From: Duganella sp. BuS-21
Lineage (GTDB): Bacteria; Pseudomonadota; Gammaproteobacteria; Burkholderiales; Burkholderiaceae_D
Length of the DNA: 64,000 nucleotides
Assembly (NCBI GenBank): GCA_041874725.1
Contig: CP097466.1
Coordinates: forward strand, 2,790,001 to 2,854,000
Reading direction: 5' to 3'
Part shown: piece by piece, positions 18,258 through 37,848 of the stretch
Layout: the number at the start of each line of letters is the position of its first letter
Numbering within the stretch: the stretch's first letter is position 1
Position numbers and translations under genes: made by a program
Notes under the pieces: model-generated
What the model saw: the letters and a program-made list of their open reading frames with translations, nothing else
Told to the model about the DNA's origin: nothing
Database searches by the model: none

Positions 18258-18354
18258 CCGACTGCGTGATGTTGTGCTTGGTGATAGCTGGGATTGCTTT
18301 CGTGCGGTTGAGATCTCGATAGCAGCGGGCGTATTTATGGTACATCTTCAATGC

Positions 18355-18705: not shown

Positions 18706-19088
18706 GACACACCTCGCACGTTGCCCAGATTGGCCGCTGTCGGTTCGCGTGCGGGGCCAGGGCAGGTCTCCTTGCGCAGCAATTGTGCTTTACGCAGCGC
18801 CACGCCATAGTTACGGACGGCGTACATTGGCACCCGCTCCCGCAATGAGCGGACAGGCGCCACTTCGCCTGAGTAGGAGGTGTGGACGTTCTCCATTTCG
18901 TTTTCCAGCGCGACGGCGAGCGCAAAGCCTTCACCATCGGAACTAAAAAAGAAACCGCCACCAGCACCTGTGGCGAGCGCCGTATCGACCGCGCGCTGCA
19001 GCGCTTCCAGCGCAGAACGGTCGCCTACGATCGAAGCCACTTCGTCCCTACGGCCGGGGCTCCGGAGATGCAGCATTTGCTTGCTCAT
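18702..19088 (-). CDS. Hypothetical protein in alpA operon
   Basis: A 128-residue soluble protein. A compact predicted alpha/beta region (RSALEALQRAVDTALATGAGGGFFFSSDGEGFALAVALE) comes before a looser C-terminus. No motif identifies it. AAGGAGAA precedes the ATG. It is divergent from kleE-korB, and the 285-base region between them contains a KorB-type operator, so its promoter could share that control. It is the first gene of the alpA pair. Confidence 0.6.
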   Translation of the reverse strand: MSKQMLHLRSPGRRDEVASIVGDRSALEALQRAVDTALATGAGGGFFFSSDGEGFALAVALENEMENVHTSYSGEVAPVRSLRERVPMYAVRNYGVALRKAQLLRKETCPGPAREPTAANLGNVRGVS

Positions 19089-19251
19089 GATTTTCTCCTT
19101 GTGATTGCCGGAACAACGATTATTCCGAAATTCGTTTTTAGTATCCGCCGCACCTGTAGCGTTTACAAGCGGTACACGTCGTCCATATCGAATAGATCAA
19201 ATGTTTGTCGAATAGGTTTTTTAGGCTGCAACTTCTGAATGGCCGAGGCCC

Positions 19252-19264
19252 TTTAGCTGCTAAA
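19252..19264. promoter_or_regulatory. KorB-type operator (OB), upstream of kleE-korB
   Basis: TTTAGCTGCTAAA, a 13-bp palindrome differing only at its centre base from the RK2 KorB operator consensus TTTAGC(G/C)GCTAAA. It lies 110 bases before kleE-korB, in the 285-base intergenic region (19089-19373) that also serves the divergent alpA pair. This suggests korB autoregulation. Nothing else is evident in that gap. Confidence 0.8.
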
Positions 19265-19373
19265 GCGAACATCGGTGCTTTGTCGCCAAACGTTTGATAT
19301 GGATCAATACGTGTCGCTTAGACGATGGGACCATGGGCACAGGCGCGTCGACGCGCGCATAGGAGCGGCGGCC

Positions 19374-19694
19374 ATGGCACGAATTTTTCAGTTTCCCAAA
19401 ATGCCCCGGGCACGGCCGGAACAGGATGCGCGTCCACCTTTGGGCGGCCTGCAGTATCCCTGGCGCGAGTTGTGGGAGAACCCGATCACCCAAGCTTTCT
19501 ATCGCCTGTTCATCGCCTTCGTCGCGTGCACCTGGCCTGTGCTGCGTTGGTTCGTTTGGGTGGACTTGTTCATCCAGTTTTTGCGGTTCGCCTTCATCGG
19601 CGGACTGACTGGCTTCGGCGCCTTGCTGCACATTCTAGTCATCGGCGTCTTGGCCTATCTGGTGGTGCGTGTGCCGCCCCTGCCACGCCAATGA
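19374..19694 (+). CDS. kleE: KleE-like stable-inheritance membrane protein
   Basis: A 106-residue protein with the IncP KleE pattern. A short basic/proline N-terminus (MARIFQFPK) is followed by TWPVLRWFVWVDLFIQFLRF and a second hydrophobic segment ending YLVVRVP. In RK2, kleE belongs to the kle operon linked to stable maintenance, and its exact function is unknown. AGGAG lies 9 bases before the ATG. Its stop overlaps korB (ATGA), so the two are coupled. Assignment rests on the shared motif order and similar length. Confidence 0.72.
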   Translation: MARIFQFPKMPRARPEQDARPPLGGLQYPWRELWENPITQAFYRLFIAFVACTWPVLRWFVWVDLFIQFLRFAFIGGLTGFGALLHILVIGVLAYLVVRVPPLPRQ

Positions 19695-20680
19695 GCGGGA
19701 TCGAGATAGGGCAGCGGCGGGTGAGTCTGGACCATGTGGGCAAAGGTGACGTCGTGGCAGGCAAAGTGCAATTGCTGGCGGCAGAAGTGGCGCGTGGCGG
19801 GCCGATTGCATTGCCCTTGGATCTGGTAGACGAAGATCCCCTGCAGCCGCGCACCAAGGACAATCCTGGATTCTCCGCCAAGAGCCTGACCGAGCTTGCC
19901 GCAGCGATCCGGCTGCGCGGCGTGAAGACGCCCATTTCGGTTCGGCCCAATCCCACAGCGCCAGGGCGATACCTGATTAATCACGGGGCACGTCGCTATC
20001 GCGCTTCGCGCCTCGCTGGGCTTGCCACAATTCCCGGCTTTATCGATGCGAACTACAACCTGGCCGACCAGGTGGTCGAGAACCTGCATCGCAATGAGCT
20101 CACCGCTCGCGAGATCGCCGACTTCATCGGCCGTGAGTTGGCCAAGGGGTTGCGCAAAGGGGAGATCGCCCGGCAGATCAGCAAGTCCGCCGCGTTCGTG
20201 ACGCAGCATGCTGCGCTGCTGGATCTGCCGGGGCCAATCGCCGATGCATTTGGTGCCGGGCGTGTCCGCGACGTGACGTTGGTGAACGAGTTGATGCTCA
20301 TTCACCGAAAGGCGCCCGATGTCGTGTCCGCTTGGTTGGCGGACGAAACGCAGGAGGTGACGAGGCCCTCGGTACGGATGCTGCGCGCTTTCATCGAGCA
20401 GAGGGTTGCTATGGCACAGAATTCCGAGCCGCATAGCAGTGAGTCGGTGCTGGTGATCGCCGGCACTTCCGGGCTTACTGAGGTCCCCACCGAACCAGCC
20501 AGTCCTGCGTCGTGGGTGAACCCGGTGCTGGCGGTGCGGCACCACGGAAGGGAGGGGCGCCTGCTAGTGCGTCGGCGTCCCTCCGCCGTAGGCAAGGCCT
20601 GGATGCGCTACGCCGACGATTGCGCGCTGGCCGAAGTGGACCTTGCGGATATCGAGTTGGTCGCGCTCATGGAGGGCTAA
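19691..20680 (+). CDS. korB: KorB-like ParB-family repressor/partition protein
   Basis: A 329-residue ParB-family protein. The ParB N-terminal domain shows LPLDLVDEDPLQPR and YLINHGARRYRASRLAGL. The central HTH block runs from NLHRNELTAREIADFIGRELAKG to GEIARQISKSAAFVTQHAALLDLP. The C-terminal SH3-like domain (RLLVRRRPSAVGKAWMRYAD, ending LADIELVALMEG) closely follows the RK2 KorB C-terminus. KorB binds 13-bp operators as a global repressor and is also the centromere-binding partition protein. Three such operators are in this window. No incC/parA partner gene is seen next to it, unlike RK2. Confidence 0.88.
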   Translation: MSGIEIGQRRVSLDHVGKGDVVAGKVQLLAAEVARGGPIALPLDLVDEDPLQPRTKDNPGFSAKSLTELAAAIRLRGVKTPISVRPNPTAPGRYLINHGARRYRASRLAGLATIPGFIDANYNLADQVVENLHRNELTAREIADFIGRELAKGLRKGEIARQISKSAAFVTQHAALLDLPGPIADAFGAGRVRDVTLVNELMLIHRKAPDVVSAWLADETQEVTRPSVRMLRAFIEQRVAMAQNSEPHSSESVLVIAGTSGLTEVPTEPASPASWVNPVLAVRHHGREGRLLVRRRPSAVGKAWMRYADDCALAEVDLADIELVALMEG

Positions 20681-20916
20681 CGGATCTGTCCCTGCTAGTA
20701 CACAGGCTTGATAAATGAGAACAGGTGATTAAAATTGACGGAGTAATAGCGCACATGTAGACACGTCCGACGAGCTCGGCGACAGGCTTTGAGCTCTTCA
20801 AGAATACCGTGGAGGCCAAGACGAAGCGGAAATGGGAGGGGCGGAGCGTTGAAAAAAGCGACCGGAAAAAGCCCGCCGCGCCACTAAATTGAAGAGGAAA
20901 TGAGCCATGAGCTGCA

Positions 20917-21294
20917 ATGTCGAATCAGCGCTTGTTAATATGGATAGCATTGAAGGTCTTGACAGTCTTGAAGGGCGTCGCTGGTATCAAAGCATTTGAC
21001 CCTGCCAAGCACCTGAACAGCAAAGAAGCGATCGCCGCATTCCTTTCGTTCGCCGTCCGCTCCGGCGACGTCGAGCACTTCAAAGAGGCGATCAAGATCG
21101 CGGCCCGCGCCGAGAACATGTCTAGGATCGCAGAGAGCGCTGGCCTCACTCGCGAGGGCGCTTACAAGTCACTCAAGCCGGGCAGCAAGCCGCAGATGCA
21201 AACCATCGTCAGCCTGCTCGACGCTCTGGGTATGGCGCTGCAGATCGTTCCGAAAGAAACAGTGAGCGACAACAGCCAAGCGCTCGCCGCCTGA
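20917..21294 (+). CDS. HigA-type addiction-module antidote protein, toxin not seen
   Basis: A 125-residue protein whose residues about 25-115 match the probable addiction module antidote family: FDPAKHLNSKEAIAAFLSFA, then the HTH MSRIAESAGLTREGAYKSLKPGSKPQMQTIVSLLDALGMAL. The first 24 residues are atypical, so a TTG start near 20960 is possible. Family members normally follow a small RelE/HigB-like killer gene. The 236 bases upstream (20681-20916) hold only a short open stretch, with no start codon, around 20785-20885. This antitoxin therefore appears orphaned, or has been recruited as a regulator. Confidence 0.7.
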   Translation: MSNQRLLIWIALKVLTVLKGVAGIKAFDPAKHLNSKEAIAAFLSFAVRSGDVEHFKEAIKIAARAENMSRIAESAGLTREGAYKSLKPGSKPQMQTIVSLLDALGMALQIVPKETVSDNSQALAA

Positions 21295-21354
21295 GTTAAG
21301 CCAGTACGGCTTCTATTCGCTTCTGCCGCCAGTTTATCCAGACCGCGCAGGATG

Positions 21355-22563
21355 CTACCGATGGCGTGCAAGTACCGAGGCAATAAATGCGCCGTTGACA
21401 CCCGGACTGGCAAGTAAAGCTTGCAAACGTTCGTCTACGGCGCTGGGTAGGAGCTGCAGCGCGGCCGCCGCGCGAACGGCTGCCGTATGCGCTTCCAGCA
21501 CGTCGGTGGATGTGATGTCGTAGCCGTGGCCTTGCGCGATGCCTTTGAGCGCCTCCATGGCCGCGTCGAGCGCGAACTCGGGCTGCTTCTCTGCAAAGTC
21601 GCGCGCGGCGCGCGCCAGCGTGCGCGGGTCGGCCGGGCTTCGTCGCGCCAATTCGATCGCCAAGTCGTATTGCCCCGCGTCCTTGGCGGCGGCGAACCAT
21701 TTGCCTTGCTGTCCCGGCTGGCTGGATGCCAAGTCGCGCAGGATGGTGTCGGGCGCCACGCCGGGATACTTCTTGCGGATGGACCGGAACACGGCGAGAT
21801 TGGTCCCGCCTTGGCCTGCGGCGATGGCGTAACGCGTGTATGCCTCATCGACCAAGCCGGCGCTAAGCAGCGCACCTTCGCAGAAGGTGGCGATGGCGGC
21901 CAGCGGCGCGTTGAGTCCCTTTGTTGCTTCCGCATAGGCAATCGCCTCTGCCAGCTTCCCTTGCGCCAGTAGCGACTTCGCGCCCCAGCGATGATCGTGC
22001 CACCATTTGAACGGAGCCCGTTCTAGTAGTGCGAGAAGTTCATCATGCCTTTGCGCCGCGTACAGGCAGGCCAAGCAGGCGGTCGTCTGTTTCAAATAGC
22101 CGGCTCTGGGTGATCCAGATTGCCACGCTGCCTGAATCGGCGGAAGCATGGTGTCTGCCCACATCGAGGCGGTCTGCGGGGACGCGCATAACTCGCCCCA
22201 GAAATTCGTCAGGGACTCCAGATAGGGGATGTTGTCGTCCTCGACGGCCGCCCACAAGCGCTGCAGCCAGCGATGGCGCACCTGGCTGGTGCTGGGTGCG
22301 GACGCGATGAGCGGCACCAGCGTTTCGATGGCGCGGGATACGGCCGAGCCCATGGCGCCGGAGGAGCTATCGACGTGGCTAATCGCAGGCGAGAGCTTTT
22401 CCAGTAAAAGCACGGCGCCGTCCGCTGCGAGGACAGGATCTGTACGCGCGGTGAGCTTCAGCTCCGCCAATGCCTCTTTGAGCCGGAGGATGGGGGTATC
22501 GGACTTCCAGCCGAAAGCGTTGCGGCGGAAGCGGGCGGCGAATTGCCATTGAGGAGTGGACAT
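21355..22563 (-). CDS. Hypothetical alpha-helical repeat protein
   Basis: A 402-residue soluble protein, largely helical, with TPR/HEAT-like spacing (LAQGKLAEAIAYAEATKGLN; FAAAKDAGQYDLAIELARRSPADPRTLARAARDFAEKQPEFALDAAMEAL). No catalytic motif is recognised. It is divergent from kfrA, and two palindromes lie in the shared 148-base promoter region, so it is probably controlled by KfrA. This points to a role in plasmid maintenance or as cargo tied to the kfr locus. Function unknown. Confidence 0.6.
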   Translation of the reverse strand: MSTPQWQFAARFRRNAFGWKSDTPILRLKEALAELKLTARTDPVLAADGAVLLLEKLSPAISHVDSSSGAMGSAVSRAIETLVPLIASAPSTSQVRHRWLQRLWAAVEDDNIPYLESLTNFWGELCASPQTASMWADTMLPPIQAAWQSGSPRAGYLKQTTACLACLYAAQRHDELLALLERAPFKWWHDHRWGAKSLLAQGKLAEAIAYAEATKGLNAPLAAIATFCEGALLSAGLVDEAYTRYAIAAGQGGTNLAVFRSIRKKYPGVAPDTILRDLASSQPGQQGKWFAAAKDAGQYDLAIELARRSPADPRTLARAARDFAEKQPEFALDAAMEALKGIAQGHGYDITSTDVLEAHTAAVRAAAALQLLPSAVDERLQALLASPGVNGAFIASVLARHR

Positions 22564-22586
22564 GCTTTTGAACCAGTAATAAGAAT

Positions 22587-22684
22587 AAGAATAATACTAT
22601 TCTTACCCGGCACAGAGAATGGCCCGGCGCGGCGTACCTTTGATTTATCGCAAAGACGATAAGAATAGTAATCGTACTATTCTT
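22587..22684. promoter_or_regulatory. Two palindromic operators in the kfrA divergent promoter
   Basis: Site 1 (22587-22604) has arms AAGAATA and TATTCTT with a 4-base spacer. Site 2 (22661-22684) has arms AAGAATAGTA and TACTATTCTT around ATCG. They share AAGAATA/TATTCTT half-sites and lie between the 402-residue gene and kfrA. RK2 KfrA represses its own promoter by binding such palindromes, so these are probable KfrA operators. They are inferred, not shown. Confidence 0.65.
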
Positions 22685-22711
22685 ATTATTACTTCGACCG
22701 GGGCGGCGATC

Positions 22712-23416
22712 ATGAAACCTGCCAGCGACACCATGGACCGCATCTACGCAGCGGCGGACAGCCTGTTTGAGCAAAGCGGACGGTCGGCGTATCCGACGGT
22801 CGACGCCGTGCGCAAGGCGGCCCGCACTAACATGAACGATGCCAACAGTGGCATGCGGGAATGGCGGCGAAACCAGATGGCGCGTGCCGTCCCCGCGCCA
22901 GTGCAGGTGCCGACGGCGATCATGGAGGCACAGGCGACGTTGGCGGTGCAGGTATGGCAGGCCGCGCAGGCCGTTGCCGGCGAATCATTGGCGGTGGCAC
23001 AGGCTGCATGGGACGCTGAGCGGAGCCAACTTGAATCGCTGAATCGGGAAATGGCCGACGCCTTCGAGGTCCAGGCAGCGGAACTGGATGCCCTCAACGG
23101 CAGGATGCGCGCCGTCGCGGAACAGGCCGAGCGCGCCGCTACATCGGCCGCCTTGCTGGTGGAGGAGGTTGGCCGACGCGCTGACGAGCTACGTCGCGAG
23201 CTTTGTCGCTCCCATCGAGAACTGGCAGCCGCCCATGCCGGCGGTCGGGCGGCGATGGCGGCGCACGCCGACGAACTGGCCGCAGTTCGCGCCGATGCCC
23301 GTCAGACGGAGGCGGTCCTGCGCGAAGAGTTGGAAGCGTTGCGCGCGCACCAGCGGGAATTGATGCAGATCGTGTCTGCTAGCGCCGGAACTGTTTTATC
23401 GCCCCGTACCTCCTAG
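22712..23416 (+). CDS. kfrA: KfrA-like plasmid DNA-binding protein
   Basis: A 234-residue protein. The N-terminal KfrA domain (MDRIYAAADSLFEQSGRSAYPTVDAVRKAARTNMNDANSGMREWRRNQ) is a helix-turn-helix region. It is followed by a long alanine-rich coiled coil from about residue 75 to the end. In RK2, KfrA is an autorepressor that forms filament-like structures and supports stable maintenance. It is shorter than RK2 KfrA. The ATG at 22712 starts just before the conserved domain. kfrB follows 43 bases later. Confidence 0.85.
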   Translation: MKPASDTMDRIYAAADSLFEQSGRSAYPTVDAVRKAARTNMNDANSGMREWRRNQMARAVPAPVQVPTAIMEAQATLAVQVWQAAQAVAGESLAVAQAAWDAERSQLESLNREMADAFEVQAAELDALNGRMRAVAEQAERAATSAALLVEEVGRRADELRRELCRSHRELAAAHAGGRAAMAAHADELAAVRADARQTEAVLREELEALRAHQRELMQIVSASAGTVLSPRTS

Positions 23417-23459
23417 AATGTGAGAAGACGCCGATGATCACCTGCCAAAGAGGAGCGAA

Positions 23460-23804
23460 ATGAAGCAACGCATATTGGTCATGAACGGACAGCGTCTCGT
23501 CCAAAGCGAATACGATCACCAGTGGGTGACCACCAAGGTCGGGAAGGCAGGGCAAATCCCGCCGGGTATCTACAATATCAGCAGCGCGACGGTGGCGAGC
23601 AAGGACAAGGCCTATCAAGGCGTGGTGCTTCATGCCGATCAGGAGCACCTTTATCAGCAGGTCGGCAAGACATGCGTCCGTCATTCGGCGCATGATTTCC
23701 CCAAGCTGCCCGGCATCGGCACTCAGGCGACCATTCATTATGATGCTGGGCGCGTTTCCACGCAAGAAGTGCAACCTGCCTTAAAAAAACGTGTGAAACG
23801 TTAG
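23460..23804 (+). CDS. kfrB: KfrB-domain protein
   Basis: A 114-residue basic protein. The central block YQGVVLHADQEHLYQQVGKTCVRHSAHDFPKLPGIGTQATIHYDAG follows the KfrB domain pattern (G.VL......Q..G.....H....F...P..G....I.Y..G). It sits directly after kfrA, as in IncP plasmids. AGGAG precedes the ATG by a good spacing. It is a probable maintenance or accessory factor. The 286 bases after it (23805-24090) contain no gene or clear signal that I can see. Confidence 0.68.
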   Translation: MKQRILVMNGQRLVQSEYDHQWVTTKVGKAGQIPPGIYNISSATVASKDKAYQGVVLHADQEHLYQQVGKTCVRHSAHDFPKLPGIGTQATIHYDAGRVSTQEVQPALKKRVKR

Positions 23805-24090
23805 GACGGTTGCACTGCTAATACCGAGCCCGCCATCTGCGCGCGGTTCCCGATGTATGCTGCCAAGGGCATCGGCCGCAGACGTCAGTATCGAAACATC
23901 TAATTGCGGAGCCGACACTAGGCAGTGGACCGTTTTCAGACTAGGCAGTTGTGCCGGCCACCCCATACATTGGAAAGACACATGAGGGGTTGCGGCGTGG
24001 TTCCTGCGTAACACCGTGAAGCGATTAGTTCGCCTTTTGCTATGGCGACCGCTGACAGCCTCAGACGCCGAAACGAAACAAATCTGGCGA

Positions 24091-27000
24091 TCATCCCGGT
24101 GACTTTTGTGTTCGACGACAGCTTTTCTTCTGTTGACGCGGCAGAGCTGTTTCTGATCGCGGAGGAATAGGGGCAATGAACAGCATGCGAGCCAGTGCTT
24201 TGTTATCAGCGCTGCCATCGGCACGTATGACGCGCAGAGTTCTCCTTTGCAGCCCAAATTTAATCAGATCGGCGACAGGACCATTATTTCCTGGTGAAAG
24301 GCATCGGCGATGCCCCAATATATAGACAGCATCGCGGGCGCGAGATAGTGCAACGTTGAGCCGATTCCGATCCAGCAAGAACTCCACACGGCCTCGGCTT
24401 CGTGTCATCAATAAGAAGACGAAATCGGCCTCGCCACCTTGTACGGCATCGACCGTCGTTGCATCTAAGGAGAAATTTAGTTTCATTCGCGCGGTGATTT
24501 CTAGAACGCGCTCGCGTTGGCCCTTGTAAGGACAAACGACAAGAACTTTTTTTCCGACAGCAGTTTCAACATCATTCAGGCGGAGCAGCATCGCCTCTAA
24601 TGCGCGGCATTCGGTCTCGTTTTTCGGAGAACTCTGCCCGGTCTCCTTGGAATGCTTGTAAGCTTTGTTTTCGCTAAAATCTACAAACACCAATCGATGG
24701 GTTGAAGCTTCCCAAACTGGTTCTGCCCGATGCGATTCCAATTTTCCTTCATAAAACAAATCGCTGACAAGATTGCCAATATCGCTGTGCATGCGATATT
24801 GAAGGGTCAGCATTCCTTTGTTGGATGCCGGTAACCTCTCAAAAATATCTTGGAAACAGTTTGTGCAAAGTAACGCCTCTACTTCGCTTAAAGGCAGGCG
24901 GTAGGGGATATCCTTATTTAGGAACTCATCAGTGACTGTTGGAGGAAGTTGAAAGTGGTCGCCGACAAGTACAACTTTGCGCGCACGGGCCGCTGGAATG
25001 AATAATTCAGCATCAAACCCTTTGCCAGCTTCGTCGATGATCGCAATATCAAAGTTACGTCGGGATAGTCCATAATCCCGGCGCATCATGCCAACGCACG
25101 TCGCCGAATGGATGTGGCGAGGTCCGAGTACCCATTTAGCGATGCTCTCCCTGCCTTCGCGTGTTCTAAGTAGCGAATGCCAACGGTGGAGCAGGGCGTC
25201 CACTTCGCCTTCGTAAATTTCCGTGCCGTCAAACGGTTCAAGGAGCGCTTCGTTCCACATTGCGGCGAGCGGAGTATTTTGCACATGCTTGGCTACACCA
25301 TAACGAACTAACTCTTGTTCTAAGTATTGGGCCCGGACAAGCAGATCGCTGACAAGCTTGGTGACCGCGATATTGGTCGGCCCGGTAATGAGTATGGTGG
25401 GCCAAGCAGCCTCATTGCCAGGGACGAATATTGAGAGTAACCAGTCGACAAGCATGGTTGTCTTCCCTGTCCCTGGAGGCCCCCATATTGCCAACAGCGG
25501 CTGATCCGATCGCAGTAGGGCATCGACAGATGTCCTACCGAGATGCTTGATTTCCACACTAGTCGCGCCGCGCGACATGAGCGTGTGGTGAACCGCAGGC
25601 GAAACAAATTTGCCACTGATTGCTTGCTCTAAAATGCGATAAAAAGTCTGCTGCTGACCTCCCTCGCCTGCAAGTTCAATTCGAGTGATTTGATAAGGCG
25701 ACGCACGATTTTCCTTCCGGCCTGCTAATTCAAACCTAAGGACTCCTAGTCCTGGATCGATCCATTCCGCTTTATTGATTTTCCATTCGTGGCCAGCGCC
25801 GATCGCACGTAATCTGGACGCCTCACCAGAGTTCAGTGCGCGATTCAGCCATGACGGTACTTGAGTGAACGTCAAAGTACCCTCGATCATTCCGTTCTTT
25901 GCCACAGCCCCGACGATAAAGCCGCATGAACTCTCGGTTTGTAAATGTTCCTGCTGGTCTTGATAAATAAGGGAGAGTTTTCGCAGCCGGACTGCGCTCT
26001 GGCGCTGCAAGTGCATTGACTTGGTGCGGCCTAGTTCTGCCGTGAGTAGATTAACGAATGAAGGGAAAAGATTCCGCACTGATAGATCATCGTCTTCGGT
26101 GCCGGGAACAAATGCGTGCAGTTCCACGTATAGCGCAACCGGTGCAATAGGATCGCTCGGCGCGAAATGAATCGCTTCAAGGATGAAAGCGTGTGTAGAG
26201 AGGCTAACTATGGTGACGAGCGTTACTTCCCCCTGCGAAAATAGGACTTGGCCGGTTTCTGTTGCATGAACGAGCCATTTTTCGTGTGAATGGCCTTGGG
26301 ATTCGAGGGCGTCGTAAGCTTCAACCAGTTGCGGCAACAATTCTTCAGAGATCGCTAACGAAACTGGCGACCATATTTCTCTCGTTGCGCTAATGCGAGG
26401 ATTTAATCGCACTTGCAGTGCGGCTCTACTACCCCGGTCAACCAGCTGGTCGAGCGTCCAAACTCCCGGGTAAACTGATATACGTGAGCCGGTGTTGACT
26501 TTACCAAGCTGCGCTGCGTCGTGTGCATTGAGAGCAAGGCGAGCCCCCATGTAACTCAATTCAACGTGTCCGGGCGTGACAGATTGAACCGTGGCGTCCA
26601 AAGCTTTACCGCCATCGGCGATGCTCGGAGCCATTAATGCGCCAGACCTTAAAGAAACACGCGCATTTTTATTCTTGTGGTCAACGGAAATGAACATGCC
26701 GGACTCGATATCTGCGGGCGATCCCTCTTCATCTACATAGCTAATATCGTACCCGTGTAAGAGAAGAGGCTTATCGGAACTGAGGTCTAGCAGGCCTCCC
26801 AAGCATGGAAAATCGGCTTGCAGGATTAGATCGTCAGGTGTTGGTAAAGTCTTTTCTAGATCGATGTGTTCGGCGCTGGCAGGAAGCGCATCAAGCAGAG
26901 TTTGAAACTGCGATCGTTCGCTATTGATGCGTCCATATGCGAGCTCCATTTCAAGAAGCGCTTGAAGAAAACCATCGTTCTCGTCGCTGCCAAAGCGGTG

Positions 27001-27270
27001 CAATAAAATTTCCTTGGCTTGCTGCAGGCTAGTCGCCAGACTCGTTGCGATTTCGTTTCGCGCATGCAGTTCGCTCTCCAGCAAATCTCTAAAGGCTACG
27101 ATGTAGCCTATTGCGATTTGCTTTCTTTCCTTTGCATCTGCACTGAGGATTGCTGCCAATGTGGATTCCAGTTCGGCGATCTTTGCCTCAACCTCAGCTG
27201 TTCGTTGTCCGTTTACCCAGCTAACTACGGTAGCTGCGATGGCTACCCCGGCGGCTATTAAAAAAAACAT
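24091..27270 (-). CDS. Membrane-anchored UPF1-like SF1 helicase
   Basis: A 1059-residue protein. Residues 1-19 (MFFLIAAGVAIAATVVSW) are hydrophobic and followed by a coiled coil, so it is probably tethered to the inner membrane. The C-terminal half is a UPF1/SF1B-type helicase: Walker A GPPGTGKT at 597-604, motif II IIDEAGKG (D746/E747), motif III GDHFQLPP, QYRMH near 824, VDAVQGGE near 940 and ALSRARD near 972. Residues about 100-590 match nothing I know. The start is TAATG-coupled to the upstream 158-residue gene. It is last of a four-gene operon. GC is well below the chromosomal genes. Unwinding of RNA or DNA is expected; the substrate is unknown. Confidence 0.85.
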   Translation of the reverse strand: MFFLIAAGVAIAATVVSWVNGQRTAEVEAKIAELESTLAAILSADAKERKQIAIGYIVAFRDLLESELHARNEIATSLATSLQQAKEILLHRFGSDENDGFLQALLEMELAYGRINSERSQFQTLLDALPASAEHIDLEKTLPTPDDLILQADFPCLGGLLDLSSDKPLLLHGYDISYVDEEGSPADIESGMFISVDHKNKNARVSLRSGALMAPSIADGGKALDATVQSVTPGHVELSYMGARLALNAHDAAQLGKVNTGSRISVYPGVWTLDQLVDRGSRAALQVRLNPRISATREIWSPVSLAISEELLPQLVEAYDALESQGHSHEKWLVHATETGQVLFSQGEVTLVTIVSLSTHAFILEAIHFAPSDPIAPVALYVELHAFVPGTEDDDLSVRNLFPSFVNLLTAELGRTKSMHLQRQSAVRLRKLSLIYQDQQEHLQTESSCGFIVGAVAKNGMIEGTLTFTQVPSWLNRALNSGEASRLRAIGAGHEWKINKAEWIDPGLGVLRFELAGRKENRASPYQITRIELAGEGGQQQTFYRILEQAISGKFVSPAVHHTLMSRGATSVEIKHLGRTSVDALLRSDQPLLAIWGPPGTGKTTMLVDWLLSIFVPGNEAAWPTILITGPTNIAVTKLVSDLLVRAQYLEQELVRYGVAKHVQNTPLAAMWNEALLEPFDGTEIYEGEVDALLHRWHSLLRTREGRESIAKWVLGPRHIHSATCVGMMRRDYGLSRRNFDIAIIDEAGKGFDAELFIPAARARKVVLVGDHFQLPPTVTDEFLNKDIPYRLPLSEVEALLCTNCFQDIFERLPASNKGMLTLQYRMHSDIGNLVSDLFYEGKLESHRAEPVWEASTHRLVFVDFSENKAYKHSKETGQSSPKNETECRALEAMLLRLNDVETAVGKKVLVVCPYKGQRERVLEITARMKLNFSLDATTVDAVQGGEADFVFLLMTRSRGRVEFLLDRNRLNVALSRARDAVYILGHRRCLSPGNNGPVADLIKFGLQRRTLRVIRADGSADNKALARMLFIAPIPPRSETALPRQQKKSCRRTQKSPG

Positions 27271-27746
27271 TATGTGCGCAACGCTACCAGGTTGTCCGTC
27301 AGTTGAAGGAGCTTGTTCGTGATTTGTGTCTTATCGGCCAGGCTGATGGCCGGGTTTTGGGCGTCAAGCAGCAGCCGGTCGTACAGTTCCAATATCCGCT
27401 GTTGAACGGCTCGAGCGTTGGCAAGCGCCTCCAGCTGTGGAGCAGCGTCAACGCGGGCTTTTTCCAGACCGATCACAGCTTTAGCATATTCTCGATCAGC
27501 GACCTCAATTCGTCCCTGCCATTCTGCCTTCACCGACTGTAATTCGTTATACGACTGCAGCACTTGTAAGGCCTGCTTGACTACGTCGAGAGCGTGCATT
27601 GTGACGTTCATGCGTCCGAGTTCTAATTTTGCATTTGTCTCCATTTCGACTTGGCGAGTGCGATGATCTGCTGCGCCTGACGTGTTCGAAGACGCGCCAC
27701 GCTTAGTGCCTAAGGAGGTTGGTAGTTTTAATTTACTAGCGCTCAT
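27270..27746 (-). CDS. Small coiled-coil protein, helicase operon gene 3
   Basis: A 158-residue highly helical protein. The N-terminal 30 residues are disordered and basic (MSASKLKLPTSLGTKRGASSN). A helix-rich core follows (KLELGRMNVTMHALDVVKQALQVLQSYNELQSVKAEWQGRIEVADREYAKAVIGLEKARV) with coiled-coil heptads. No known domain is recognised. Its stop overlaps the helicase ATG as TAATG, which implies co-translation and probably a fixed stoichiometry or complex. The helicase also has a coiled coil near its N-terminus, a plausible docking site. Confidence 0.7.
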   Translation of the reverse strand: MSASKLKLPTSLGTKRGASSNTSGAADHRTRQVEMETNAKLELGRMNVTMHALDVVKQALQVLQSYNELQSVKAEWQGRIEVADREYAKAVIGLEKARVDAAPQLEALANARAVQQRILELYDRLLLDAQNPAISLADKTQITNKLLQLTDNLVALRT

Positions 27747-27754
27747 TTTTAGTC

Positions 27755-28255
27755 CTAGAGTGTTGTTCGGTTATAGTAGTCAAGGGCTTCGCGCATGCGG
27801 TCCCAAGAACCTTGCATTTCGCCTGACAGTTTTTCGAATGACCCCACGTCAGGTAAGTCTGATTTTCGTAGCGTCGCCATTTCCTGCATCAACGCCTGCA
27901 CGGTCTTAGCGCACAATAATGTCAGTTTGCCGATTCGCTCCCGAATCTGTTTGTCCTGTCCCAACTGCTCTCGTGCTATAGCGAGCTCTTCCTTCAATTT
28001 TGTGCGTTCGATAGCAAGCCGGCTTTCATCCTCCTCGATAACCGAAGCCAGCCCATTCAGACGTGTCCTGGCGGCCCGCAACTTGAGCCAAGAGTTAGCC
28101 GCATCTAACACGGACGCTGCGGTGTCGAGAACCAATAGGGCAGGATTCACCCGCGCTGCCGCCTTTTTTATGCCTTGTTTCAGCCCGTATTGAGCTGCAA
28201 GTTTTGCTGCGCGTGCGGTGAAAGATAAGGCTTGGTGCGGCAAACGCTGAGTCAA
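27755..28255 (-). CDS. Small helical protein, helicase operon gene 2
   Basis: A 166-residue protein, mostly helical. A basic, alanine-rich N-terminal part (FTARAAKLAAQYGLKQGIKKAAARVNPALLVLDTAASVLDAANSWLKL) precedes a long coiled coil (LASVIEEDESRLAIERTKLKEELAIAREQLGQDKQIRERIGKL). I prefer a TTG start at 28255: AGGAG lies 6 bases before it and TTGA overlaps the S1-protein stop. An ATG at 28285 would add 10 residues. It ends 8 bases before the next gene. The family is not recognised. Confidence 0.65.
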   Translation of the reverse strand: MTQRLPHQALSFTARAAKLAAQYGLKQGIKKAAARVNPALLVLDTAASVLDAANSWLKLRAARTRLNGLASVIEEDESRLAIERTKLKEELAIAREQLGQDKQIRERIGKLTLLCAKTVQALMQEMATLRKSDLPDVGSFEKLSGEMQGSWDRMREALDYYNRTTL

Positions 28256-29820
28256 TTCGTACTCCTGAAATGAAAGCTGCACCATACTTCAGGCTCGAGC
28301 CGCGTGGCCACGGCGCCGCTTTCTAAGGTCAAACCTGCTTGCCCCAACACAGGGGTGGGCGGGAAGGCATTTTCTTTAAGTTGGCGGGGCCGCAATGTCC
28401 CCTCGCCACGCTCGACCCAGAGAGTCTTCGTGTAGGGTTCTAAGTAGACGGACTGCGGCAATCGATCGGCTCTATCGAATGCGGCGCATTTTACGAGTAA
28501 CAGCGTACTAGCCCTCTCGTAGCCGCGCTCAGGGCGGTAAGGTCTATTCGTTCCCACGGCATCAAAAGCGCTCCAAAGCGCGGCAAATAGCCAGTGATCA
28601 GTGACGTATGTACACACCGGCTGGTGCACGCCATCTTTCGCGATCATTATTTGGAGGCGGCGGTCCGATAGATGCTTCGCTAGAACTGATCGCCGCTCGG
28701 CATCGAGGAAAAATCCAATTATTTCGTCTGGAATTTCTTCGCCATTTCTGCCGAGGAACTCACTATCCGCTCGTGGATTGAACGCAGGACGTGGCCAATT
28801 GGCTGGATATTCTGGAATGCTTAATTCTTGGGGGAAGGGGGGATTTACGGGTATTCCAGAGCGAGCAGATAATCGACTGCCGGGCTCGGCGGTTGCTGCG
28901 TAACGCCCGCCGTAATTCGCCTCGTTTATTTCGCGAGCCAAATCATCCGCCTCGATAATTGATCGGCTCAGCGACGTCAGCCTTCCTTCTGACAACATGC
29001 CCACTTCTTCCAATTGGTTCAGGACCGAGGCTAGAACTGGTGCAGGGAGCCGAGTCCGAATTGAGATGTCATCACTTGAATTCCCTGCGGCGATCTCTGC
29101 GAGCACGTGCATCAACACGGCATCCAGGATTGCAGAGCGCCGAGCGCGCGCCTTGATAGTGAAAGGAAGCGCGCTGAATGCCATGGGCACATACTTAGGA
29201 GTGGGTCTCGGGAGACAGGACCGAATGCTCGCCGTCGCGCCGCTTTTTTCTTGCCGCCACTTACCTTGCCATTCAGGTATCGTCAATCTTAGAACCTCGA
29301 AATCGACCACTTGGCCGATCGAAACGACATCTGCCGGATATTCGACGGGATTCCAAGCCATCTCGGCTATAGGCACGTAAAATTCAAGTTCTCCGGCCCG
29401 AATCGTAACTCCCCTAGGCTTTAACGTGTCCACTACGCCCTTCAGACGCTGACCGGACGTTAGCTGGGCAAGTTGTTCGCGCTTACGAACTTCGGTCACT
29501 GCGGCCAGACTTCCATTCCATTGACCGGGCTTCCGCTCACTTGGAGTTAAGATAACGAGCTCGACATCCTGTCCAGTAGATAGCACATCGGAAGCCGATT
29601 CGATCTTACGGTTAGAGATCTCTGAAGCTGAGACGAAGGCCTCTGTCCCCATTACCGCGATTTTTGCCCAGTTTGGGCCGACGTAGCTGACACGCCCCTG
29701 ACACAGGACTCCCGGAGCGAGTACAGGATTAGGCGGCAGATCTACTATCGGAGAGGAGTCGGCCCTCGGTGAAGTTTCCAATCGACTGCCGATTAGTGCA
29801 GCAAACAATTCTTTAAGCAT
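28252..29820 (-). CDS. Double S1-domain nucleic-acid-binding protein, helicase operon gene 1
   Basis: A 522-residue soluble protein. Residues 37-108 form an S1/OB-like repeat (GVLCQGRVSYVGPNWAKIAVMGTEAFVSASEIS) and 122-203 a second (GQRLKGVVDTLKPRGVTIRAGELEFYVPIAEM). Residues 226-285 look like a winged helix (ILDAVLMHVLAEIAAGNSSDDISIRTRLPAPVLASVLNQLEEVGMLSEG). The C-terminal 220 residues are unassigned. S1 domains bind RNA, so with the downstream helicase this suggests an RNA-directed complex. It opens the operon; a 236-base gap (29821-30056) with AT-rich promoter-like DNA precedes it. Confidence 0.7.
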   Translation of the reverse strand: MLKELFAALIGSRLETSPRADSSPIVDLPPNPVLAPGVLCQGRVSYVGPNWAKIAVMGTEAFVSASEISNRKIESASDVLSTGQDVELVILTPSERKPGQWNGSLAAVTEVRKREQLAQLTSGQRLKGVVDTLKPRGVTIRAGELEFYVPIAEMAWNPVEYPADVVSIGQVVDFEVLRLTIPEWQGKWRQEKSGATASIRSCLPRPTPKYVPMAFSALPFTIKARARRSAILDAVLMHVLAEIAAGNSSDDISIRTRLPAPVLASVLNQLEEVGMLSEGRLTSLSRSIIEADDLAREINEANYGGRYAATAEPGSRLSARSGIPVNPPFPQELSIPEYPANWPRPAFNPRADSEFLGRNGEEIPDEIIGFFLDAERRSVLAKHLSDRRLQIMIAKDGVHQPVCTYVTDHWLFAALWSAFDAVGTNRPYRPERGYERASTLLLVKCAAFDRADRLPQSVYLEPYTKTLWVERGEGTLRPRQLKENAFPPTPVLGQAGLTLESGAVATRLEPEVWCSFHFRSTN

Positions 29821-30048
29821 GAGTGTTTGTCCAAAGGCAGTCTGCCCAACTTCAGCGACAAATGGTAATAATTTATGCTAAACGAAATATGGCTTTATTG
29901 CAATAATTTTGCCGCTTGACAAGTAACTTTAATCAGTTCTTTACATGCCGGTCTTTTGGCTCAAGGCTTCAACCAGCGTTACTGCGCCTGCAAAGCTAGA
30001 TCGCGGAGCAGTGGGGGTGGGGGCGTTCTTTACTGCGGCCTGTGCTAA

Positions 30049-30056
30049 GAACCAAC
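30049..30056. repeat. Target-site duplication, left copy (GAACCAAC)
   Basis: Eight bases GAACCAAC directly outside the left IS66 end, identical to 33089-33096. Confidence 0.95.
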
Positions 30057-30150
30057 GTAAGCGCTCCACGAACCCCAGCCTTGCCCACTAATTTCGCAGC
30101 GGGCATGATGCAGGCATCGAGGGGGAGGATGGCGAAGCTGGCGACGCCGT

Positions 30151-30660
30151 TTAGGTCCGCTTCGCTACAGTCGGGATGGGCGTAAATGCAATGCAGTTGA
30201 CGAAGTTCATGCTGGCGAGCATGACGTAATTGTCCGTGTCCTCTGGGGTGATGCTGGCGAGCCACTTGTTGAGTTCGTCGGTGACATGGGCAAGCAGCGG
30301 TTTTTCCGGATGTGCCTCCAGGTACTGCATCATGGCGCGTTGGCGTTGTGCCGGGCTCAGGTCTTCGCCGAAGCGCACGGTGGCGACATAGCGTCCCAGT
30401 TGCTTGTCCAGGTCGGCTTCGGTGATCAGTGGCCAGGGCAGGCCCGACTGCTTCATCGCCTGGAAGCAGACGAACAGCAGCTCAAGTACGACCTCGATTT
30501 TTGCCAGCGAGACACCCATGCGCTGGAGTGCGAGCGCGGAGCCGAACATGTTCGGTTGCGTTCGGAACAATTCGTCGGCCAGGAGCTCTTTTTGCTTGAT
30601 GCCCATGGCACGTATGATGTTGATAGCGTCAGCGAGCGCCTGCGGCGTGACGCGGCTCAT
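30151..30660 (-). CDS. IS66 accessory protein of unknown function
   Basis: A 169-residue soluble, helical protein inside the IS66 ends. Its start overlaps the tnpC stop by 4 bases (ATGA), so it is translated with the transposase. No motif identifies it. Standard IS66 elements carry only three genes; extra downstream genes occur in some relatives. The N-terminus (VTPQALADAINIIRAMGIKQKELLADELF) could be a small helical DNA- or protein-binding region. It may be a passenger gene or a transposition accessory. Confidence 0.7.
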   Translation of the reverse strand: MSRVTPQALADAINIIRAMGIKQKELLADELFRTQPNMFGSALALQRMGVSLAKIEVVLELLFVCFQAMKQSGLPWPLITEADLDKQLGRYVATVRFGEDLSPAQRQRAMMQYLEAHPEKPLLAHVTDELNKWLASITPEDTDNYVMLASMNFVNCIAFTPIPTVAKRT

Positions 30661-32318
30661 TGCGCGAAGCCGGTTGGTACGCCGTGCTCAACATGGTTCG
30701 TCGCGCGTATATTCCAGGGCAGTAGCCCCTCGATGTCATCGACGGTCTTCGCGGCGGGCAAGTCGCGCAGCACCCGGCGCAGCCACGTGTACGGTTCAAC
30801 GCCATTCGCCTTGGCCGTTTCCAGCACCGAGTAGATGACGGCGCTGGCGTTGGCGCCGGCCACGGTGTCGCTAAACAGCCATGCCTTGCGGCCGACGACG
30901 AACGGGCGAATCGCGTTCTCGGCGCGGTTGTTGTTGATCGGCAGGTCGCCGCGCTCTGTGTAGCGCGTCAGGCGCGGCCAGTAATCGCGCAGGTACGACA
31001 GCGCCGTGCCCAGCGCGCTCTTGGGCGTCACGCACGGCAGCGTCTTGTCGAGCCACGCGCGTAATGCGGCCAGCGCCGGCACGCTGTGCTGTTGCCGCGC
31101 CAGCAGGCGCGCCGCGTCGTCGGCATCCTTGTGGTCGCGCTCGACGCCGTAGAGCTTGCCGATCAAGGCCACAGCCTCGTCGGCCAGCCCGCGCTTGCCT
31201 TTCGGCTGCACCTTGACGGCCTCGACGAACCGACGACGCACGTGCGCCCAGCAAATCAACTGTTCGATACCATCGGTGCGCACCAGCTCGTTGTAGCCGC
31301 TGTAGCCGTCGGTCATCACATAGCCCCGGTAGTCGTGCAACAGGCGCACCGGCACCTGCCCGCCACGGCTCGCATCGTAGTCAAACACCACCACCGGCCG
31401 CCCCGGCGGCCCGCCTGTCTGCACCCACATATAACTGTTTGAGGTCGACGCCTTGCCCGCTTCCTTGAGCACCTGCACCACGGTCTCGTCGATGTGCAGG
31501 AACAGCACTTCCAGCAAGGTGTCGCGCATCAGATTGAGCAGCGGCTGCAGTACGCCGGCCGCGCCGATGACCCAGCGCGCCAGCGTCTGGCGCGGCACGG
31601 TTGCACCATGGCGGGCCAGCACGTATTCAAAACGGGCCAGCGGCAGGCCATCGATGAACTTGACCACCAGCAGCATGGCCAGCAGGTCGGCGCTGGCGTT
31701 GCTCTTGGGCAGCGGCTGGGACGGCAACTCGGCCGTCACCGGCGCGTGCGCGCTGCCCGGACAGCCATAGCGCTTGCGGATATGGCGCAGCACGCGCACC
31801 CGCATCGGCACCAGGTCAAGCTGCTCGCTGATGTCCTCACCGATCTCCACCATCGGCGTGCCGCACGGGCAGGTGCGGTCGGCGGCGGGCACGTCGTGCA
31901 CGACATCGACGCGCTGCAGTTCGGCTGGCAACAGGCCGCGCTTGCCGCGCGCCGGTTTGTTGCTGGCCTTGCCGTCGCCTTTGGTGTCGGGCGGCAGCGG
32001 TGCCACGTCCTGCGTCGCATCGCCATCGGCGGCTAACACCTCGGCCTCGTCGAACAAACGTCCCTGGCCCGACGACTGCTCAGAGCTGGCGCCGAACATG
32101 CGGTGGCGCGCCAGGATGAACTGTTCCATCATGTGCTGCATGTGGTTCAACGCCTGTGTCTTGACGTCGTTATGCGCGGCGATGACCGAGTGCAGCAGCG
32201 CCGTCAGTGCGGCCGCGTCGGTCGGCAGCACGGCCGGCAGGGACAGCTCGGGCAGGCTGTAGCGCGGCGGCAGGTTCGACGGTTTGGCGGTGGCGGAAGG
32301 CATGCGATAGTTTATCAA
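30657..32318 (-). CDS. tnpC: IS66 transposase TnpC
   Basis: A 553-residue IS66-type DDE transposase. It has an N-terminal helical leucine-zipper region, then a zinc-finger-like stretch (DRTCPCGTPMVEIGEDISEQLDLVP). The IS66 catalytic domain follows, with LHIDETVVQVL, MTDGYSGYNEL and ICWAHVRRRFVEA, and late RGDLPINNNRAENAIRPFVVGRKAWLF (the catalytic Glu context). A C-terminal domain follows (YSVLETAKANGVEPYTWLRRVL). No frameshift is seen, so it is probably active. Confidence 0.96.
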   Translation of the reverse strand: MINYRMPSATAKPSNLPPRYSLPELSLPAVLPTDAAALTALLHSVIAAHNDVKTQALNHMQHMMEQFILARHRMFGASSEQSSGQGRLFDEAEVLAADGDATQDVAPLPPDTKGDGKASNKPARGKRGLLPAELQRVDVVHDVPAADRTCPCGTPMVEIGEDISEQLDLVPMRVRVLRHIRKRYGCPGSAHAPVTAELPSQPLPKSNASADLLAMLLVVKFIDGLPLARFEYVLARHGATVPRQTLARWVIGAAGVLQPLLNLMRDTLLEVLFLHIDETVVQVLKEAGKASTSNSYMWVQTGGPPGRPVVVFDYDASRGGQVPVRLLHDYRGYVMTDGYSGYNELVRTDGIEQLICWAHVRRRFVEAVKVQPKGKRGLADEAVALIGKLYGVERDHKDADDAARLLARQQHSVPALAALRAWLDKTLPCVTPKSALGTALSYLRDYWPRLTRYTERGDLPINNNRAENAIRPFVVGRKAWLFSDTVAGANASAVIYSVLETAKANGVEPYTWLRRVLRDLPAAKTVDDIEGLLPWNIRATNHVEHGVPTGFAQ

Positions 32319-32324
32319 ATTCCC

Positions 32325-32681
32325 CTACGAAACAGAACCGAAATGCAAGGTTTTATGGGGCGGTTTCTGCCATACATCGAAGCCTTCCAGTAGCCACTCG
32401 AACTGCTGCAGCGTGACCGCTTGCGTGGCGCCGTCGGCGTTGCGCGGCCAGGCGAATTTCTCCGCTTCGAGACGCTTGAGCCACAGGCAGAAACCGTTGC
32501 GGTGCCAGTACAGCACCTTGATCTTATTGCGGCCACGGTTGATGAACACGTACAACGCGCTGCCGAACGGATTGAGCCCCAACTCCTGCTCGACCAGCAC
32601 CGACAAGCCACCGATGGACTTGCGGAAGTCGACCGCGTCGCGGCATAAAAATACCTGCTCGATGCGACAGCCCGAATGCAT
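32325..32681 (-). CDS. tnpB: IS66 Orf2 protein TnpB
   Basis: A 118-residue IS66 Orf2-like protein with the typical RIEQVFLCRDAVDFRKSIGGLSVLVEQELGLNPFGSALYVFINRGRNKIKVLYWHRNGFCLWLKRLE pattern. It is required for IS66 transposition, with unclear biochemistry. The ATG overlaps the tnpA stop (TGATG). Confidence 0.95.
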   Translation of the reverse strand: MHSGCRIEQVFLCRDAVDFRKSIGGLSVLVEQELGLNPFGSALYVFINRGRNKIKVLYWHRNGFCLWLKRLEAEKFAWPRNADGATQAVTLQQFEWLLEGFDVWQKPPHKTLHFGSVS

Positions 32682-33019
32682 CAGCGAACCCCGGCGTGGG
32701 CTTGTTCGAGAGCCAGCAGCCAGGCCGGTGACGGCAGCGCCGTCATCTCCAGACGCAGGCCGGAACCGAGCACAAGTGTGCATGCGCCGTTTGCAGGGCT
32801 TGCTTGCGCATCCACCACGCGTAGCGCGACGAACTTGCCGGTCGTACCGCAGGCGCTGTCGGCCACTGTGGTCGGCGTCAGTTTGCGACGCCAGTAATAC
32901 AGCGATGCCAGCGTCAGTCCGTGCTGCCGCGCATGCACGCTCGCCGCCGCGCCTTCGCGCCGGCACGCCTCAGCGTGTAATGTCCAGAATTCGGTATCGC
33001 CTGCCGTGCTTGCTCCCAT
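32681..33019 (-). CDS. tnpA: IS66 TnpA (HTH) protein
   Basis: A 112-residue small protein at the promoter-proximal end of the IS66 operon. The N-terminal helix-turn-helix region (FWTLHAEACRREGAAASVHARQHGLTLASLYYWRRKL) is typical of IS66 TnpA and related IS3-type leader proteins. It starts about 70 bases inside the right inverted repeat. Confidence 0.93.
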   Translation of the reverse strand: MGASTAGDTEFWTLHAEACRREGAAASVHARQHGLTLASLYYWRRKLTPTTVADSACGTTGKFVALRVVDAQASPANGACTLVLGSGLRLEMTALPSPAWLLALEQAHAGVR

Positions 33020-33088
33020 TTAGATTGAAACGGCAAGCATGCGGAAATCTGGATTAGGCCACAAGGTTGGGGTTTGTGGATCGCTTAC

Positions 33089-33096
33089 GAACCAAC
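33089..33096. repeat. Target-site duplication, right copy (GAACCAAC)
   Basis: Eight bases GAACCAAC directly outside the right IS66 end, identical to the left copy. The 308 bases that follow (33097-33404) contain no gene I can support. A 91-codon frame would read through the rejoined target site, but no product is recognised. Confidence 0.95.
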
Positions 33097-33404
33097 GCGT
33101 TGCGGCCGGCAGCAGCGACACCGAACGCATGGATGCGATGCCGTGCTCGGGGGGCAATAGCAGCGGCAACATCATGGGCGCGGGAAATGCCCTATGCTTG
33201 TCAGTTTTTCGCGTCTTGTATCAAACAAGGCACCCGCGCGCGATTATCGGTCTCGGTTAGAGGGCAGGTAAGCTCACAGCAGGCTTCATGGGTGTAGGAT
33301 TGCTGCGCGACACACCAACTCTCTACGGCGCCGGCTGTGCCGCTGGCGCTGGGCTCATTTTGCGGCTGAGCGACGATTAGCAAGGTCCGGCAAACCGTCG
33401 CTAT

Positions 33405-34631
33405 CTACCTAATTCCAAAAAGGAAGCAGGCATCGGCCAAACTCCATGGAATAGGGGTCAATAGGACATAAGCAGCCCCCAAGGTTGGGAGCGCCGCTAT
33501 GACGCCAAAAACAATAAAAGTACTTTTCAGGACCTTGTATTGATTTGACATGTTCTTCTTCGCCGTAGCTATCGGCTGTCGTAATTTCTTGGGGAATGCA
33601 TCTTCGTTATACTGCCCAAAGATGAGGTCGAAGCTGCCACGCAGCCGTTTGACTTGCAACCACTGGTTCCACAGCACACCGCCAAAAATTATCGATACTG
33701 TGATTAGCCCAAAAAAAATGACCCAAAACTCTTCTTGAGTTGTAGCTTTGCGTAGCAGAATGATCGCAGCGAATGAGACTGGAAGCGCTAATAATTTTCC
33801 TGCGATATCCCCAAGGACTCCACTCAGCTTGGTTGCGTGATCGATTTCGGCAGTAGCGATCTCTTTGCGAACCTTCTCAAAGGCATATTGATTGACGAAG
33901 GCGAGCACATTGTGCCGATACTTTTCCAGTACCAATTTCCATTGTCGTATCAAGTAAGAAAAAACCGCGCTTGACGCGTCAGGATTGGCGATCACCTCGG
34001 CCACAGCCAAGCGCATAATGGAGCGCTTTTCTTCAATATGAATGTCATTCCTAACTCCATCCGCAGACAATAGCTCAACCAATTTTACATGTGGTAAGTT
34101 GTGTCCGAGATCATCAGCAGAAATTTTAATCGGCAAGGCGAGTGTTTTGGCCGGACTTTTACCGTCAGCAGCTAGTACGAACAGCAGGCGGTTCTCGGCA
34201 CCTTGCGCCGCGCCGCTGGTATCTGTTTCTGACGCCAAAGCAGATAGACCTTTGACGAGCCGGCATACATCCTTGAGCTGGAGGATGACTTCCGGTACGG
34301 TCGACGCTTCATCGCCCGAGTAGAAATCCAGATCTTGGATATAGAATTCCTTTGGCAATTCTCCAAAGCATAACGAAGGGGTAACGCTAATAAAATCAGA
34401 GATGGATGCGTGGAACCTGCCGACTTCTGACGACGGCAGATTGAATTCTCCGCTGAAATGATTTACCCCAATCTCATCAACCTCGAAGTTTCCGAAATGA
34501 TGCGGTAACTCCTTTACACCTTTGATTAGGTCGAGCGTATCAGGTGTCGCGGCACCGTCGAATGTGAAGGTTCCGTCCGTGATGACGGGGCGGCCGAAGG
34601 CCCGATACATTTCAACGATAGATGAAAACAT
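33405..34631 (-). CDS. Membrane-anchored protein paired with NA37-type gene
   Basis: A 408-residue protein. Residues 1-270 are soluble with mixed alpha/beta character. The C-terminal third has three or four transmembrane helices: LLALPVSFAAIILL, FWVIFFGLITVSIIFGGVLW, STFIVFGVIAALPTLGAAYVLL and a short last one. This sensor-plus-membrane-domain layout is common in abortive-infection effectors. I do not recognise the family. It starts 2 bases after the stop of the nucleoid-associated-protein gene, so the two form one unit. GC is low relative to the chromosomal genes. It is not clearly Kiwa (KwaA/KwaB) by eye. Confidence 0.65.
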   Translation of the reverse strand: MFSSIVEMYRAFGRPVITDGTFTFDGAATPDTLDLIKGVKELPHHFGNFEVDEIGVNHFSGEFNLPSSEVGRFHASISDFISVTPSLCFGELPKEFYIQDLDFYSGDEASTVPEVILQLKDVCRLVKGLSALASETDTSGAAQGAENRLLFVLAADGKSPAKTLALPIKISADDLGHNLPHVKLVELLSADGVRNDIHIEEKRSIMRLAVAEVIANPDASSAVFSYLIRQWKLVLEKYRHNVLAFVNQYAFEKVRKEIATAEIDHATKLSGVLGDIAGKLLALPVSFAAIILLRKATTQEEFWVIFFGLITVSIIFGGVLWNQWLQVKRLRGSFDLIFGQYNEDAFPKKLRQPIATAKKNMSNQYKVLKSTFIVFGVIAALPTLGAAYVLLTPIPWSLADACFLFGIR

Positions 34632-34633
34632 TT

Positions 34634-35758: not shown

Positions 35759-35975
35759 GCATGATAGAACTGAAATTATCCTATGGAAACTACAAATTTT
35801 GCAACTATAAATAACAACGATGTTGCCAGTTCGTTATGGATAATGGCTTTGCATCGTTGCTATGTTCCGGGTGGCTTTTTCCATTCAATGCACAGATGAT
35901 CTTGCCCCTGCTATCGGGGTAGGCCGGCGACATACTTGAACGAATTGACGGCGGTCCTTGCAGATGGCGAGGCCG

Positions 35976-37488: not shown

Positions 37489-37499
37489 TTCGCTCTCGT

Positions 37500-37810: not shown

Positions 37811-37848
37811 GCTACCGCCGCCAGATGCGAATGCAAGGAGCACACAAC

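Follow-up and report, generated by a model that had tools for sequence, protein, structure and literature searches.

A conserved four-gene operon combining a UPF1-like helicase with an S1-domain protein in a conjugative element of Duganella sp. BuS-21: a possible translation-directed defence system

A stretch of 64,000 nucleotides from Duganella sp. BuS-21 (contig CP097466.1, positions 2,790,001 to 2,854,000, in a genome that forms a single contig of 6.49 Mb), referred to below as the window, contains a four-gene operon carried by a conjugative element. All four genes lie on the minus strand and encode, in the order of transcription, an S1-domain protein of 522 residues, here termed the S1 adaptor (28252..29820), small protein A (27755..28255), small protein B of 158 residues (27270..27746) and a UPF1-like superfamily 1 (SF1) helicase of 1059 residues (24091..27270). 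The close packing described in an earlier reading made from the letters alone (the sequence-only reading) was borne out by the coordinates and junctions: the TTG start of small protein A lies over the TGA stop of the S1 adaptor gene (TTGA), with AGGAG upstream, a gap of 8 bases separates the genes of the two small proteins, and small protein B is joined to the helicase by TAATG. The open reading frame of small protein A was listed as 27755-28285 and an ATG start at 28285 is possible, but initiation from the TTG (28255) is more probable because the equivalent residue starts the five relatives of this protein. The guanine-plus-cytosine content of the operon (52.3%) is, as had been claimed, well below that of the chromosomal genes (64.0% at 1-15700, left of the integrase); in the backbone of the conjugative element it is 59.3% at 17471-24090 and 57.2% at 37500-64000.

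The helicase starts with a hydrophobic N-terminus detected by hydropathy (residues 1-20), followed by a helical region (25-128), a beta-rich region with a predicted fold (~160-390) and, in the structural model, a stalk helix (401-446) and OB-like strands (448-515), with the RecA domains extending from residue ~538. AAA_11 and AAA_12 are matched above the Pfam cut-offs, and the residues of the P-loop, DEAG, Q-box and arginine motifs are invariant in all 28 aligned helicase sequences. When the modelled residues 421-1030 were compared with known structures, IGHMBP2 and UPF1 headed the list of matches, with Dna2 and UvrD at lower Z-scores (20.7 and 19.9, respectively). The stalk, the OB domain inserted before RecA1 and the intact SF1 motifs support the assignment to UPF1-like SF1 helicases made in the sequence-only reading, and its N-terminal membrane segment is recovered as a hydrophobic N-terminus, the top hydropathy window starting at residue 1 or 4 in 24 of 24 homologues (17-residue mean 1.63-2.54). 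The stalk, OB domain and RecA core are shared with UPF1 and IGHMBP2, from which the protein differs in being bacterial and operon-encoded and in carrying the hydrophobic segment and about 400 extra N-terminal residues.

The S1 adaptor comprises a short N-terminal amphipathic helix (residues 2-9), the place of which is taken by a transmembrane-like segment in a few relatives, two S1/OB domains (~34-204; PF00575, E 7.6e-16, above the Pfam cut-off), a predicted MarR-like winged helix (~229-300, modelled fold at 229-295) and a C-terminal domain with a putative alpha+beta fold (~305-522). Both S1 repeats and the winged helix had been recognized in the letters; the winged helix is supported by the model, its Pfam match being sub-threshold only (PF24409, 20 bits vs a cut-off of 27). 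A link to retrons or PRTases was considered and dropped, with only this match and one to PRTase_III-A (E 0.0036), both sub-threshold and in the winged helix, to suggest it. The model of the S1 pair resembles domains D3-D4 of the ribosomal protein bS1, the product of rpsA, and residues 52-178 are 26% identical to rpsA of the same genome. Unlike bS1, which has four to six S1 domains, the adaptor has two, fused to the winged helix, the unmatched C-terminal domain and an N-terminal helix of the membrane type. Small protein A has a moderately hydrophobic stretch at approximately residues 46-62 (in the 176-residue reading), whereas small protein B, probably a coiled coil as judged by eye, matched no family in Pfam, NCBIfam, PADLOC or PHROGs. 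Searches with PDB sequence profiles gave no match below E 0.07 for the small proteins and the C-terminal part of the S1 adaptor, the best match for one of the small proteins being a weak one to keratin (E 0.07).

The four genes were found together elsewhere, as the sequence-only reading had anticipated. The family-specific N-terminal half of the helicase (residues 1-560) has 23 homologues besides itself, and an alignment of seven such halves, compared with 84,980 species genomes, matched five loci, two in Latescibacteria (L022 and L024) and one each in Marinobacter, Caballeronia and KSB1. At all five, and hence at six of six with the window, the four genes are present in the identical order, so the layout is not due to chance. 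A profile of the C-terminal domain of the S1 adaptor retrieved 48 proteins, the one from the window included. Five helicase and five S1 homologues are encoded on contigs of equal base counts (163004, 47668, 13963, 6798 and 5725310), which suggests that these are the same contigs. Evolutionary distances of the helicase and the S1 adaptor, calculated for the window, the five other loci and four of the contig-matched pairs, leaving out a fifth that is truncated on both sides, are correlated at r = 0.978, a value reached in none of 5000 permutations. The four genes are a conserved and co-inherited unit by these sequence comparisons. In the pair on contigs of 5,725,310 bases, both the helicase (P0024, 676 residues) and the S1 protein (P0072, 400 residues) are shortened, possibly representing a decaying copy.

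The gene set is rare. Among 294 genomes of the family to which the host belongs, it was detected in one, that of the window, the other matches being short ones (23-31 bits) to proteins of the ribosomal S1 type. Elsewhere the carriers were 2 of 64 Latescibacteria, 1 of 399 genomes of the Caballeronia order and 1 of 163 of the Marinobacter family, all at the loci already found, in scans that used the N-terminus of the helicase as the query, the S1 protein having been searched only in the family of the window. In the scan of that family and in one of the group scans, scoring was limited to a few top-ranking first-look candidates from each genome, so that misses are possible. None of 72,556 plasmid records contained the gene set, and none of 50,697 phage records matched the helicase over 80% or more of its length. 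Comparison of viral contigs with the N-terminus of the helicase yielded 140 pattern stretches and no relative. The S1 protein, compared with a collection of genome contigs, gave 9 such stretches, again without a relative.

The set is not covered by the models of Pfam, NCBIfam, PADLOC-DB (2023) or PHROGs. In PADLOC, matches to the helicase are limited to its core, those to the S1 protein have E-values of 0.0036 or weaker, and the small proteins have none, so that the earlier statement that the operon matches no named system holds in the sense that no full-length profile set exists there. No description of the system was found in the open-access full-text literature, with subscription papers and preprint servers mostly uncovered. 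Defence centred on helicases is already a known kind, of which this set would be a new variant. The closest likeness is to Mokosh, which shares the UPF1-like SF1 core and whose MkoA profile ranks first among the PADLOC matches to the helicase (E 6.5e-80). Type I Mokosh includes a serine/threonine kinase partner. A PLD-like domain is listed for both types I and II (PMC10952713). No PLD-like, NERD or kinase domain was detected by Pfam in the four proteins (for PLD, up to E 1), and membership was rejected for want of the PLD-like and kinase domains; a divergent Mokosh-type system is also very improbable, given that the MkoA match covers only residues 574-992 and that the operon has instead a 560-residue family-specific N-terminus with the hydrophobic segment and three partner proteins, the S1 adaptor and the two small proteins, that are unlike those of Mokosh. 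The CnuH protein of the CoCoNuT type IV restriction systems, for which targeting of RNA or translation is predicted (PMC11090510), is likewise a UPF1/DNA2-like helicase with a stalk and an OB domain, but the operon lacks the McrB-type GTPase, HEPN nuclease and TerY-P module of CoCoNuT, as judged by Pfam for the four genes. Membership was rejected because no McrB-like GTPase was matched in the four proteins, the wider genes being only partly scanned.

That the adaptor has to do with ribosomes or mRNA is hinted at most strongly by sequence comparison at one of the two Latescibacteria loci (L024, OX638329.1, genome G294). There, the S1 protein has 677 residues, and its residues 19-380 are 97.5-98% identical to residues 11-372 of the rpsA product of the same genome (596 residues). 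At the DNA level, the identity is 95.6% over 1079 bp without gaps (L024:7023-8101 vs L032:1508-2586). The captured module corresponds to D1-D4 of the host protein and includes the N-terminal segment by which bS1 docks on the ribosome, a feature of this copy alone, whereas the short N-terminal helix, the winged helix and the C-terminal domain are all of the family type. Given this near-identity, the S1 module has been exchanged for D1-D4 of the host, and the protein has been nearly unchanged since. Among the 48 differences, 40 are synonymous and 8 non-synonymous (dS 0.19, dN 0.0096, omega 0.05), although this omega could stem in part from the divergence of two rpsA lineages before the capture. 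Mismatches number 0-2 per 60 bp in the middle of the tract and up to 7 at its ends, a pattern that repeated gene conversion could leave. An assembly artefact is unlikely because 48 of the 1079 positions are not the same in both copies, most of these differences being synonymous, and the fused reading frame is open in a contig of 6.53 Mb. OB1 and OB2 are the ribosome-binding domains of bS1, with the OB1 N-terminal helix binding uS2, and OB3-OB6 bind RNA (PMC10123108).

The surroundings of several loci and the scattered distribution of the set are suggestive of defence, most likely against phages. At L023, the Marinobacter locus, the neighbours include a DrmD-like gene, with a type IIG/DrmMI-like gene directly upstream of the set and a HEC-05-like gene directly downstream. 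At L026, restriction (R) and specificity (S) genes of type I are found on the upstream side; a PDC-S58/Cas13-ApeA-like gene comes immediately after the set on the downstream side, and farther on are genes resembling HEC-05 and BrxD. At L025, a PtuA-like gene is located 7.4 kb away and another large neighbour is without a match, and at L022, a type II methyltransferase gene is found at 5 kb. We estimate at roughly 40% the probability that the operon encodes a mobile immune system of four proteins, most probably directed against phages, that acts on translating ribosomes or their mRNA at the inner membrane. The membrane-tethered nucleic-acid surveillance complex proposed in the sequence-only reading keeps its footing in the conserved unit, the UPF1-like helicase and the hydrophobic N-terminus, and its target is narrowed to ribosomes or mRNA by the exchange with rpsA.

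How such a system would work can be outlined tentatively. The S1 protein would serve as an adaptor that contacts the 30S subunit, or the mRNA on it, through its bS1-like module and is tethered to the membrane by its N-terminal helix. The helicase, with its hydrophobic N-terminus as the anchor, would act as a motor, stripping or remodelling whatever RNA or ribonucleoprotein has been captured, and small proteins A and B might link the adaptor to the motor. The outcome would be to limit phage protein synthesis or to kill the cell. In this outline, we infer the formation of a complex, its location at the membrane, the targeting of ribosomes or mRNA, the anti-phage role, the trigger and the final step, be it protective or lethal, and the effector step is a guess. 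A membrane-anchored UPF1-like helicase directed to ribosomes or mRNA by a captured S1 module, with the bait or adaptor open to renewal from the rpsA gene of the host, might even amount to a new class of immunity and be the architectural counterpart in bacteria of mRNA surveillance by UPF1, a picture that we consider rather doubtful.

Besides this guess, several observations weigh against a translation-directed immune system. Docking on the ribosome rests on the single genome G294. When the domains of the other family members were assigned to the nearest bS1 domain with profiles built from 17 rpsA sequences, the G294 copy being left out, the first S1 domain was closest to D3 in 24 of 43 sequences, to D6 in 18 and to D5 in one, and the second to D3 in 42 of the 46 sequences and to D6 in the other 4; none was nearest to the docking domains D1 and D2 or to D4. 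At the His, Tyr and Phe positions, which we take to be the RNA-contact platform of D3 in bS1, the first domain (n=43) has His replaced by Phe in 39, Phe by Lys in 35 and Tyr by Lys or Arg in 31, and the second (n=46) has His replaced by Pro in 45, Tyr by Arg or Lys in 35 and Phe by Val or Ile in 33. The canonical contact residues are thus mostly lost outside G294, which makes simple mRNA binding doubtful; of the earlier claim that the S1 domains bind RNA, the domains stand and the binding is weakened. The 20 neighbours compared with PADLOC were hand-picked, with L024 left out and no background rate, the neighbours at L022 are otherwise ordinary-looking, and, by eye, the genes around both Latescibacteria copies look like ordinary chromosomal ones. 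The use of the helicase N-terminus as the query in three of the four group scans and the lack of any match to a killing domain (nuclease, NADase or other) in the four proteins belong on the same side.

The loss of the contact residues also favours the best surviving alternative, a membrane-bound defence against incoming phage or plasmid DNA, in which DNA would be the substrate of both the winged helix and the helicase, with the S1 domains serving only as a scaffold. The predicted MarR-like fold of the winged helix, the structural matches to Dna2 and UvrD, the hydrophobic or amphipathic N-termini of both larger proteins and the restriction genes among the neighbours are all consistent with it. 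However, the nearest structures of the helicase are RNA helicases, and a mere scaffold is hard to square with the exchange for ribosomal S1 of the host; we regard this explanation as unlikely. Next in order, and also improbable, is a horizontally spread module for translation stress or ribosome rescue without an immune role, which would account for the translation-linked domains, the missing killing domain and the location of both Latescibacteria copies outside any evident defence island but fits poorly with the scattered presence and the defence-rich neighbourhoods at L023 and L026. Distinctly less probable is an integrated decoy, in which the S1 module mimics ribosomal S1 targeted by phages and interference with it would set the system off. 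The G294 copy, D1-D4 of the host under purifying selection, would suit a decoy, and phages do modify or recruit S1: ModB of T4 modifies rS1, mostly in D2 and D6 (PMC10468400), and the Q-beta replicase uses bS1 (PMC10123108). Outside G294, however, the module resembles S1 only poorly, as the 26% identity in the window illustrates, and the loop arginine targeted by ModB was not apparent by eye in an alignment of representative S1 sequences of the family, so that a decoy of the ModB type is kept as a rival only.

Were the translation-directed immune system to be confirmed, targeting of translation at the membrane would join the strategies of bacterial immunity, in a form tied to ribosomal protein S1, and the exchange with host rpsA makes this idea directly testable. 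Even without an immune role, a conserved bacterial partnership between an S1 protein and a membrane-tethered UPF1-type helicase would be new to us, no account of one having been found in the open-access papers searched.

In the window, the operon is, as previously described, cargo of a conjugative element, the genes of which extend over 16080..63816 and encode a tyrosine integrase, KorB, KfrA, KfrB, a relaxase, a TraG-type coupling protein and type IV secretion proteins of the VirB4/6/9/10/11 types, as well as an ArdC-like protein, a type I methyltransferase and a KilA-N protein. The integrase adjoins tRNA-Ser: two tRNA-Ser(GCT) genes (15709-15801 and 17378-17470) flank it and are identical in 90 of 93 bases, the differences being at the acceptor-stem ends, and the element seems to carry its own copy. 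A gene pair that resembles the anti-phage pair DS-1 and is not counted among the genes of the system (33405..35758, minus strand; 73/315 and 92/330 bits vs the NCBIfam cut-offs, no PADLOC match) lies 3.6 kb upstream of the operon, from which it is separated by an IS66-family transposase gene with Orf2 (30657..32966, minus strand). The region 33405-37488, with a YejK-like NA37 gene and its partner followed by three small genes without a PADLOC match, is a possible variant defence cassette. A protein of 1154 residues (43197-46661) combines an ArdC N-terminal domain with a zincin-like peptidase and a Toprim domain and is of the anti-restriction type. The genes of the type I methyltransferase and the KilA-N protein are located 31-33 kb from the operon; the latter (62791-63816) matches the PADLOC candidate PDC-S22 (E 1.9e-128), and its coordinates overlap the end of the methyltransferase gene.
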